This document shows, piece after piece, positions 14,577 to 16,804 of a stretch of 16,804 bases of DNA. Position 1 is the first letter of the stretch. Every line of letters starts with the position of its first letter. The position numbers were made by a program, and so were the translations under genes. This DNA is from Emcibacteraceae bacterium (GTDB lineage Bacteria > Pseudomonadota > Alphaproteobacteria > Sphingomonadales > Emcibacteraceae): contig JAESUD010000267.1 in NCBI GenBank assembly GCA_016763335.1, positions 1 through 16,804 on the forward strand, read 5' to 3'. The notes under the pieces were generated by a model. It did no database searches. It was not told the origin of the DNA and was given only the letters and a program-made list of their open reading frames with translations.

Positions 14577-14775
14577 ATTTTATCTTTTCAACCTGACAGA
14601 GGCTCGATTTGAAACCAGGAAAGCCGGTTATTTCACAGAGAGCTTCGTCAGGGATAAGATAATTCATTGCCGCAACTTCCCAGCCATGGGGGGCGTGAAC
14701 CACATCGGGCATCATAATGTCCGATACCAAAGCGCGTATTTCAAGCTTGCGGCCTTGGGAATGTTGATGTTTCCA
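14566..14775 (-). pseudogene. Relic of a molybdopterin oxidoreductase C-terminus
   Basis: An open minus-strand reading frame ends in TAA at 14566-14568 and encodes about 70 recognisable residues, but it has no start codon and no upstream domain; an in-frame TAA closes it at 14797-14799. The end matches the dinucleotide-binding C-terminal domain of DMSO-reductase-family enzymes: EIRALVSDIMMPDVV, then the hallmark APHGWE, a later ITGFPGFKSSLCQVEK, and a charged tail. The conserved spacing between PHGW, the GFP-x-x-KSSLC segment and the terminal VE is that of thiosulfate/polysulfide reductase-like large subunits, so this is homology rather than chance. All the catalytic parts are gone. It is best read as what remains after deletion of a full gene. 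Confidence 0.65.
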
Positions 14776-14982
14776 TCTCGTCTGTAATGTTATGTTTTAA
14801 AGTTCCCGCTATCTTCATGAATAGCTCCCAATATTGCCCCTACCAAATTTTGATATTTTGCATTATACATCAACCACTCATCTAATTTGTTGATAAATAT
14901 CAATGAAACAAGATAAATTAGCTTTATTATATTTATCACAAAACAATAAATTAAAAATTACAAACGCCACATATATCAATAA
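14577..14982 (+). other. Intergenic region between hslU and the MBL-fold gene
   Basis: This 406-base gap has two parts. The first 200 bases carry the antisense molybdopterin-oxidoreductase relic, whose base composition is close to that of coding DNA. The remaining 160 bases (about 14820-14982) are very AT-rich and non-coding, holding the FNR-type box and a -10 element described separately. Short plus-strand frames through the relic have no matching features and are not genes. I see no terminator hairpin after hslU; the first plausible one on this strand is at 15961-15983. Confidence 0.6.
14890..14930 (+). promoter_or_regulatory. FNR/FixK-type box with class II promoter for the MBL-fold gene
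   Basis: TTGATAAATATCAA at 14890-14903 is a perfect match to the FNR/FnrL/FixK consensus TTGAT-N4-ATCAA and is also a 6-2-6 palindrome. TATTAT at 14925-14930 is a good -10. If transcription starts about seven bases after it (14937), the box centre (14896.5) is at about -41, the position of class II activation by CRP/FNR-family proteins. A further ATCAA half-site at 14975-14979 is probably chance. The downstream gene starts 46 to 58 bases after the predicted start of transcription. Confidence 0.6.
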
Positions 14983-15858
14983 GTGAGTAAGGATATGACT
15001 TCTTCAGCAATAATAAAAGCATTCTTTGATCCGGATACATATACAGTTACCTATGTCATCGCCGACCCCTCATCAGGCTCGTGTGCGATAATTGACAGTG
15101 TCCACGACTATGACCCTGATTCCGGGCGAACTTCGACGAAATCTGCTGATCAGGTTATTTCCTATATTGAAGAAAATAATTATACCTGCAAATGGATACT
15201 TGAAACCCATGTCCATGCGGATCACCTAACCGCCGCCCCTTATCTTAAAGAAAAAATTGGCGGAAAAATAGCGATCGGCAATCAAGTGACGAGTGTTCAG
15301 GAAACATTTGGCCCAATTTTTAATGCAGAAAATTCATTTGCAAAAGATGGCAGCCAATTTGATCATTTGTTTGAAGATAATGAAACATTCAACATCGGCA
15401 ATATTCAAGCCACCGTTTATCATACACCGGGCCATACACCGGCCTGTGTTTCATACATTATAGAAAATAACTGTTTTGTCGGCGACACCATGTTTATGCC
15501 AGATTTTGGCACAGCGCGCTGCGATTTTCCCGGCGGCGATGCGGCAATGCTTTATGCTTCGATTGAACGAATACTTGAACTGCCTGATGATACGGTACTT
15601 TACATGTGCCATGATTATGCACCCGGTGGTCGCGACTATAAATGGGTGACATCGGTTGGTGAGCAAAAAGAAAAGAACATTCATCTTGCTGGAAAAACAC
15701 GCGAACAATATATCGAGGCAAGAACTACCAGAGACGCAGAACTGAGCATGCCAAAATTAATTCTGCCATCGGTTCAGGTTAATATGCGTGGTGGTAATTT
15801 TCCGCCAGCCGATGACAACGGAACTTCTTATATTAAAATTCCTCTTAATAAATTATAA
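14983..15858 (+). CDS. MBL-fold metallohydrolase, persulfide-dioxygenase-like (ETHE1/Blh type)
   Basis: The 291-residue protein (from GTG 14983; 287 from ATG 14995) has the metallo-beta-lactamase fold. The metal ligands, by GTG numbering, are H76, H78, D80 and H81 (THVHADH), H151 (HTPGHTP), D168 (FVGDTMF) and H210 (MCHDY). The fold, the MPDFGTARCDFPGGDAAMLYASI block and the Tyr/Trp-rich C-terminus match the ETHE1/Blh-like group, whose members oxidise glutathione persulfide to sulfite with one iron. Persulfide dioxygenase is therefore likely but not proved. Start choice is unclear: the ATG has an AAGGA only one base away, and the GTG has no Shine-Dalgarno. No rhodanese or BigR-type regulator gene is adjacent, unlike the known Blh operon. 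It probably ends at the hairpin at 15961-15983. Confidence 0.88.
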   Translation: MSKDMTSSAIIKAFFDPDTYTVTYVIADPSSGSCAIIDSVHDYDPDSGRTSTKSADQVISYIEENNYTCKWILETHVHADHLTAAPYLKEKIGGKIAIGNQVTSVQETFGPIFNAENSFAKDGSQFDHLFEDNETFNIGNIQATVYHTPGHTPACVSYIIENNCFVGDTMFMPDFGTARCDFPGGDAAMLYASIERILELPDDTVLYMCHDYAPGGRDYKWVTSVGEQKEKNIHLAGKTREQYIEARTTRDAELSMPKLILPSVQVNMRGGNFPPADDNGTSYIKIPLNKL

Positions 15859-15875
15859 GAATGGATAAGTTATAA

Positions 15876-16019
15876 TCAATGACACCAAACACCGTGTGTA
15901 TCCACATGGCGGAACCAGTCAACATCAGACCAATAACGGCTGATCTCAACAGGGGGGACCGGGCATTTATAAAGCCCTTTTTTAAAGCATAATTTTTTTT
16001 GTTTAAAAGTGAAAGCCAT
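15876..16019 (-). CDS. Small 47-residue Cys/His/Trp-containing protein of unknown function
   Basis: A 48-codon ORF beginning at the ATG 16017-16019 has AGAGGAG (16027-16033) seven bases upstream, and a good promoter (TTGATT 16067-16072, 17 bases, TATATA 16044-16049) places its RNA start near 16037. A longer frame to 16238 exists, but it would run through the promoter region and into the MFS gene. The peptide is two-part. Residues 1-19 are basic (FTFKQKKLCFKKGLYKC) and the rest is acidic and aromatic (VPPVEISRYWSDVDWFRHVDTHGVWCH), ending in Cys-His. There is no signal peptide or membrane segment. C11, C19 and C46 with H38, H42 and H47 could bind metal. I recognise no family. It lies between a metallohydrolase and an MFS exporter. 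Confidence 0.6.
   Translation of the reverse strand: MAFTFKQKKLCFKKGLYKCPVPPVEISRYWSDVDWFRHVDTHGVWCH
15961..15983 (+). terminator. Candidate rho-independent terminator for the MBL-fold gene
   Basis: GGGC (15961-15964) pairs with GCCC (15974-15977) around a nine-base loop that could add two to three A-T pairs. Six T residues follow (15978-15983). This has the shape of an intrinsic terminator on the plus strand, about 100 bases downstream of the MBL gene stop. The stem is short, so efficiency may be low. It lies inside the small ORF on the other strand (codons for K-G-L-Y-K-C). Confidence 0.4.
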
Positions 16020-16095: not shown

Positions 16096-16804
16096 ATGAC
16101 CGATAGAGTAAACCTACTTAATAGAAGAGAATTTATCTGCATAATGGCTGTTTTAATGTCCATTACAGCCTTGTCTGTTGACGCAATGATACCCGCACTA
16201 GGATTAATGGCTACGGACTTAAATGTACAAAATGCCAATGATATCCAAATGGTCGTAACAGCAGTCTTCTTAGGTATGGCATTCGGGATTATGCTTTACG
16301 GGCCTTATGCCGACAGTTTTGGGCGCAAAAATGCTATCTATCTAGGTATTAGCATTTTTCTCGTGGGCACCGTGGTCGCAATTTATGCGGATAGTCTATA
16401 TACCATGCTAATAGGTCGGGCCATTCAAGGGTTTGGGTCGGCAGCTTGCCGCGTTGTAACGCTGACAATTATCCGTGATAAATATAAAGGCGCAGAAATG
16501 GCAAAAATAATGTCATTGATTATTATGGTGTTTATCATGGTTCCTGCGCTCGCGCCGTTGCTTGGGCAGGGTATATTGCTTTTTGCGGGTTGGCAGTACA
16601 TTTTCTGGTTCATATTTGCCTTCGCGTTAATCGGCGTTATATGGATGCATTTTAGACAGCGCGAAACATTAGTCAGTGAAAACAGAAGAGATTTCTCTTT
16701 TTCAGTAATTCTTTCGGGTACGGTTGAAACCGTTAAGCACCCTGTTTCCATGGGTTACACACTTATGGCCGGGACTTTATTTGGTGCCTTCGTAACTTAT
16801 TTAA
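16096..16804 (+). CDS. Bcr/CflA-type MFS drug exporter, partial (C-terminus outside window)
   Basis: From ATG 16096 the frame is open to the window edge, giving about 236 residues, roughly the first half of a 12-TM major facilitator. The first segments are clear: TM1 around FICIMAVLMSITALSVDAMIPAL, TM2 MVVTAVFLGMAFGIMLYG, then motif A G-P-Y-A-D-S-F-G-R-K (loop 2-3), TM3 and TM4 with GRAIQGFGSAACRVV. TM5 contains the VFIMVPALAPLLGQ stretch, which is motif C of drug/H+ antiporters, and TM6 follows GWQYIFWF. These place it in the Bcr/CflA branch of the DHA1 drug:H+ antiporter family. The substrate is unknown, and it has not been matched to a specific member. It is divergent from the small ORF gene. 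Confidence 0.9.
   Translation, partial: MTDRVNLLNRREFICIMAVLMSITALSVDAMIPALGLMATDLNVQNANDIQMVVTAVFLGMAFGIMLYGPYADSFGRKNAIYLGISIFLVGTVVAIYADSLYTMLIGRAIQGFGSAACRVVTLTIIRDKYKGAEMAKIMSLIIMVFIMVPALAPLLGQGILLFAGWQYIFWFIFAFALIGVIWMHFRQRETLVSENRRDFSFSVILSGTVETVKHPVSMGYTLMAGTLFGAFVTYL

Follow-up and report, generated by a model that had tools for sequence, protein, structure and literature searches.

Which gene does an FNR-type box serve when it stands between a gene for a predicted persulfide dioxygenase and the remains of a divergent molybdoenzyme gene, and is that gene turned on or off when oxygen is scarce? The box lies in a stretch of 16,804 nucleotides (the window), which is the entire contig C203 of an Emcibacteraceae genome of 2.89 Mb in 371 contigs. 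We conclude that the box at 14890-14903 is real and probably functional, and we give a probability of roughly 0.57 to its being an FnrL class II activator site for the dioxygenase gene.

A single exact FNR-type box in the window

A pattern scan, accompanied by shuffles, places an FNR/FnrL-type box, TTGATAAATATCAA, at positions 14890 to 14903, with no strand assigned. All ten fixed bases of TTGAT-N4-ATCAA, the pattern by which, along with its close variants, we recognize FNR sites, are present, as the initial annotation had read them, and the scan returns no second exact match in the window. In 200 dinucleotide-preserving shuffles the mean number of exact matches is 0.04, with at least one match in 8 of the 200, a value that coincides with the rough estimate made earlier. 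The description of the box as a full palindrome over 14 bases has to be given up: its complement is TTGATATTTATCAA, so the central two bases are unpaired and pairing extends to 12 of 14 bases.

Genome-wide, the exact pattern occurs 15 times, compared with about 7 when the window shuffles are scaled up to the genome and with 2 matches for a control in which the pattern is read backwards, and 11 of the 15 sites overlap an open reading frame of at least 80 aa. A match alone is therefore only moderately telling, and the exact pattern by itself, taken across the genome, is weak evidence.

The genes on either side of the box

Downstream of the box, on the plus strand, lies the gene of a 287-aa MBL-fold protein (14995-15858; an alternative GTG start is possible at 14983), which profile and sequence matches liken to the SDO half of Blh. 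The protein matches the P. putida persulfide dioxygenase of PDB entry 4YSK, named PpPDO in PMC12856154, over nearly its full length (E 1.4e-113), and it carries the MBL motif H-x-H-x-D-H. It matches NF040641 at profile positions 141-423 only (396 bits; cut-off 625). The DUF442 sulfurtransferase half that would make it a bifunctional Blh is absent from the protein, and a profile search finds no PF04273 (DUF442) match anywhere in the genome. Homology to proven enzymes thus bears out the persulfide-dioxygenase-like gene of the initial annotation, and we describe its product as a predicted stand-alone persulfide dioxygenase of the Blh/PpPDO type.

Beyond the dioxygenase gene lie a gene for a small protein of 47 aa (15876-16019, minus strand), whose match to PF17583 (DUF5484) is just under the cut-off, and a conserved neighbour, a Bcr/CflA-like MFS transporter gene (16096-16804, plus strand; profile matches) that is truncated by the contig end. 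Conserved Cys and Trp residues mark the small protein, which is also present in G003, G005, G008, G009 and G010. A homocysteine S-methyltransferase-like gene directly follows the dioxygenase gene in G005 and G012 (L060 5871-6812; L031 541-1488), not in the window.

On the other side of the box, the minus strand holds the remnant of a divergent molybdopterin oxidoreductase gene (14578-14818), a dead gene that the initial annotation overlooked and on whose side of the box the -10 hexamer is better still. The remnant is made up of 19 N-terminal codons (14818-14762, encoding MKIAGTLKHNITDEMETST), a 31-base junction piece (14738-14768) matching about residues 586-596 of the intact gene, and a C-terminal piece from about residue 633; minus-strand positions 14775-14581 match the last 65 or so residues of the enzyme. 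In comparison with the intact copies (687-689 aa; L059, L060, L062), two deletions have removed about residues 20-585 and 597-632, and the frame has changed. PF00384 and PF01568 are both present in the intact L060 copy, whereas the window holds only fragments and none of the intact domains of the DMSO-reductase family. The best NCBIfam match of the intact gene is formate dehydrogenase alpha, far below its cut-off, and the best solved-structure match by sequence is acetylene hydratase (L060 2815-4884, minus strand; L059, L062, L055).

A search of 99 genomes finds an intact copy in 5, each of them from this genus, and none in the genome of the window. Among the 99, the oxidoreductase is restricted to this genus and linked to the persulfide dioxygenase gene. 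The two genes are directly divergent in G001, G005 and G008; in G003 the molybdoenzyme gene lies past an MFS gene relative to the MBL gene, and in G009 it adjoins the Bcr/CflA-like gene, with no MBL gene there.

A -10-like hexamer on each side of the box

Facing the MBL gene, a -10-like hexamer matching TATAAT at 5 of 6 bases, TATTAT (14925-14930, plus strand), lies 28 bases from the box centre. Transcription predicted from it would start near 14937 and put the box centre at about -40.5, in agreement with the position of about -41 noted earlier and with a class II site, whose centre we expect near -41.5, overlapping the -35 position; the start itself is read from the hexamer. Facing the dead divergent gene, a perfect TATAAT (14862-14867, minus strand) lies 29 bases from the box centre, and it is this divergent side, not the MBL side, that has the better hexamer. 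The chance of a 5/6 hexamer such as TATTAT at one of four spacings is 12% here, and that of a perfect TATAAT within four spacings on the minus strand is 1.2%. A promoter scan gave 4 hits against 2.1 expected and is not informative, and a terminator scan found none.

An FnrL-like regulator and further sites in the genome

Does the genome encode a protein that could use the box? A profile search with PF00325, the Crp signature, finds one protein, FnrL-like and of 252 aa. It has a C-x2-C-x7-C motif near the N-terminus, another Cys in 'DLCQM', and a recognition helix with E-TVSR, and against NF045989 it scores 160.7 bits, below the cut-off of 300. The cysteines we take to be the cluster ligands, and the E-TVSR helix presumably recognizes TTGAT. 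The genome thus encodes a regulator of the kind that an FNR site requires, one with cluster cysteines and an E-xxSR helix, and the FNR/FnrL-type user proposed by the initial annotation has a candidate. An Fnr-like match at E <= 1e-20 is found in 12 of the 13 genus genomes, the present one counted, and none at this threshold in G011, which is 53% complete. The only Fnr-like proteins found in G001 and G002 are of a more distant type (35-36% identity); the G001 protein (35%) likewise has C-x2-C-x7-C.

The looser pattern TTGAY-N4-RTCAA has 36 sites in the genome, 22 of them overlapping an open frame, compared with 11 sites for its control. Copies precede ccoN (TIGR00780, over the cut-off), a NarK-family transporter gene (family match below the cut-off) and two usp (universal stress protein) genes, all typical FNR targets. 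In Rhodobacter capsulatus, the direct targets reported for FnrL include ccoN and a UspA gene, with such sites (PMC4634722).

We also examined the spacing of these sites. With the 22 sites that overlap open frames dropped (among them the usp site L145) and the window excluded, 19 orientations remain, of which 3 have a hexamer matching TATAAT at 5 or more of 6 bases at offset 28, against a mean of 0.41 per offset; offset 29 has none, and offsets 26-28 together have 6. A hand-picked set of 19 oriented sites, L156 excluded, likewise gives 3 of 19 at offset 28. The ccoN and narK-like sites have no hexamer of even 4/6 at offsets 26-31, and the spacing rule is therefore not general.

Several of these sites have neighbours of interest in their own right. 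The NarK-family gene is divergent from a gene (L003:1393-2988, minus strand, contig C62, with L142) for a 531-aa protein with a nitrate- or nitrite-sensing NIT domain, a cNMP-binding domain and a Crp-type helix-turn-helix, and TTGACCTTGATCAA lies between the two; by its domains the protein looks like a one-component nitrate-responsive Crp-family regulator. A gene for a beta-CASP-like MBL protein (L139:1576-2346) has TTGACCTTCATCAA 62 bases upstream and CATAAT at offset 28, and is a candidate for another FnrL target. TTGATGTTTATCAA (L020:1501-1514) is flanked by genes for an XRE-cupin regulator and a class III aminotransferase, and a perfect TATAAT at offset 28 faces the regulator gene. The gene beside the box of L013, considered as hemN, is PmbA/TldD.

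The box is shared by part of the genus

For comparison among relatives, we took the best MBL match per genus genome at E <= 1e-60, which gives ten orthologues; second, more distant MBL copies in G004 and G010 were left unscored, and G002, G007 and G011 have no match at this threshold. Within 250 bases upstream, an exact TTGAY-N4-RTCAA is found in 3 of the 10: the window, G001 and G012. In each of them a hexamer matching 5/6 or better faces the MBL gene at offset 28; in G001 and G012 it reads TAAAAT. The exact box is absent from the other seven; G008 has a site with one mismatch and no 5/6 or better hexamer at offset 28, and in G003, G004, G005, G006, G009 and G010 the best site has at least two mismatches. 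The upstream comparison suggested by the initial annotation thus upholds in part the class II position toward the MBL gene: the geometry recurs in the orthologous promoter of two sister species at the same offset, but 7 of 10 orthologues lack the box.

Because the MBL tree joins G001 and G012 as sisters, the box-bearing lineages number only two. The promoters of these two align (score 47; maximum 33 in 500 shuffles), and the box differs symmetrically between them, TTGAT..ATCAA in G001 and TTGAC..GTCAA in G012. The window and G001 are identical at 17 of 18 bases at the box, with an alignment score reached by 3 of 500 shuffles; between the window and G012 the promoter alignment is at chance level (309 of 500).

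How does the presence of the box relate to the molybdoenzyme gene? In G001 the box lies 15 bases upstream of the molybdoenzyme start codon, a gap that leaves no room for a class II site for that gene there. No such molybdoenzyme gene was found in G012. Among genomes with both genes at the locus, 1 of 4 has the box (G001; not G003, G005 or G008), and among those without an intact molybdoenzyme gene, 2 of 5 have it (the window and G012; not G004, G006 or G010). The presence of the box therefore does not track that of the molybdoenzyme gene.

In a wider survey, the strict pattern lies upstream in 2 of 80 named loci (L062 and L105; reversed control 0 of 80), and the looser TTGA-N6-TCAA in 6 of 80 (its control 0 of 80), a denominator that includes L104, which has no upstream DNA, and a few loci with less than 350 bases. 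L062 is G001's own DNA, 100% identical over 3849 bases. With the strict pattern in so few of the 80, the site is characteristic of only part of this genus. Sequence identity with G003, G005, G010, G001 and G004 places five named records, all metagenome-assembled, in the genus. A loose TTGATACACCTCAA common to L063, L068 and L069 (two titled Gammaproteobacteria, one Oceanospirillales) was rejected, its right half being unlike an FNR box. An upstream scan of 30 loci left 7 unscored, all outside the genus (L035, L044, L045, L048, L051, L052, L053).

Discussion

Since the box is still there in the window, with its dead divergent gene, and in G012, where no such gene was found, we assign it chiefly to the dioxygenase gene; in the present genome it may earlier have had a role at the divergent gene as well, until that gene died. 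We infer the following course of events. At low oxygen FnrL would regain its iron-sulfur cluster and dimerize, and the dimer would bind the box at about -41, recruit RNA polymerase to the TATTAT -10 hexamer, and thereby raise expression of the persulfide dioxygenase. Sulfide would be produced where oxygen is scarce and would poison the terminal oxidases; with residual O2 the enzyme would convert glutathione persulfide to sulfite, and so could shield respiration at low O2.

The initial annotation saw a puzzle in the induction of an O2-using enzyme at low oxygen, and held repression to be the simpler reading. We do not share this view. In Agrobacterium, growth and respiration under hypoxia are reported to depend on Blh (PMC5823870), and in the present genome ccoN, a cbb3 oxidase gene, has a site of the same type, so that low-oxygen activation of an O2-using enzyme is reasonable.

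Of the other explanations, the one that survives best is that the box was shared: a single FnrL dimer between two class II promoters would have activated molybdoenzyme and dioxygenase alike, and since the molybdoenzyme gene died one promoter arm would be idle. The perfect TATAAT 29 bases from the box on the divergent side, a 1.2% event, together with TATTAT at offset 28 on the plus strand, makes it possible that both genes once depended on the box, and the molybdoenzyme gene is directly divergent in three genomes (G001, G005 and G008) and separated by an MFS gene in G003. Yet G001 is the sole genome found with both the intact gene and the exact box, and there the 15-base gap excludes a class II site; the molybdoenzyme loci of G005, G003 and G009 have no exact box, nor has G008. 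We regard full sharing as unlikely.

A related explanation is that the box belonged to the molybdoenzyme gene alone, so that what remains is a relic to which the MBL gene does not respond. Genes for anaerobic molybdoenzymes are among the classic targets of FNR, and the perfect minus-strand -10 hexamer lies at class II spacing. As the main reading we reject it, and consider it improbable, because G012 has an exact box with a -10 hexamer at offset 28 toward the MBL gene and no such molybdoenzyme that we could find, and because in G001 the start codon is too near the box; the lack of an exact box in G005, G003, G009 and G008 speaks against it as well.

Could the box instead mediate repression of the MBL gene, or a response to nitrate or nitrite, through FnrL or a different Crp-family member, for example the NIT-cNMP-HTH_Crp protein? 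That protein is encoded beside the narK-like gene with a box in between, and an O2-using enzyme could well be turned off when there is no O2. The class II spacing favours activation, however, as does the reported need for Blh in hypoxia (PMC5823870), and we think this explanation very improbable. Least credible of all is a functionless chance match, which might appeal to the 15 exact genome sites, 11 of them overlapping open reading frames, and to the lack of the box in most orthologues, but which has to contend with 0.04 matches expected in the window and with a second lineage that has the box and the same -10 offset, where the genome rate of TTGAY-N4-RTCAA is about 0.3% per 250-base upstream region.

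How does activation by FnrL compare with what is known? With the FnrL promoters of ccoN and uspA in R. capsulatus (PMC4634722), the locus shares a TTGAY-N4-RTCAA-type site and an FnrL-type regulator with cluster cysteines; the spacing seen in this genus, which would fit class II, we liken to that of FnrL-activated alphaproteobacterial promoters. It differs in its target, here a predicted persulfide dioxygenase, and the words sulfide and lactamase are absent from the main text of that report. With the bigR-blh operon of Agrobacterium and Xylella (PMC5823870) it shares the kind of dioxygenase (ETHE1/SDO domain), described there as needed at low oxygen. Unlike that operon, it has no DUF442 half, it shows an FNR-type box as its visible control element, and no BigR-like gene adjoins the dioxygenase gene in the window. 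PpPDO and PaPDO (PDB 4YSK; PMC12856154) are the same kind of enzyme by near full-length match, and differ in regulation as far as the main text of the PaPDO paper goes, in which 'ANR' is absent. FNR-type control of persulfide or sulfur dioxygenases is announced in none of the titles and abstract openings searched, a scope outside which most subscription journals lie. Control type and target are each known, and the novelty of their pairing is modest; FnrL activating a sulfide-detoxifying enzyme in a marine alphaproteobacterium would be a plausible extension of known biology.

More tentatively, and with considerable doubt, we suggest that in this lineage FnrL directly drives sulfide and persulfide detoxification at low O2 in place of persulfide-sensing control of the BigR/SqrR type, that a shared bidirectional site was retained by the dioxygenase after the death of the molybdoenzyme, and that oxygen, not the toxic substrate, would be the signal. 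The two nearest named relatives are the metagenome bins SI072_bin126 and SI074_bin98, whose origin we believe to be Saanich Inlet, a fjord that is poor in oxygen and turns sulfidic seasonally. The locus is also a natural experiment: in some species the second of the two genes at this divergent promoter is dead or absent, and any selection acting on the site can then be attributed to a single side. If our reading is true, sulfide detoxification would be tied to oxygen sensing in marine bacteria.
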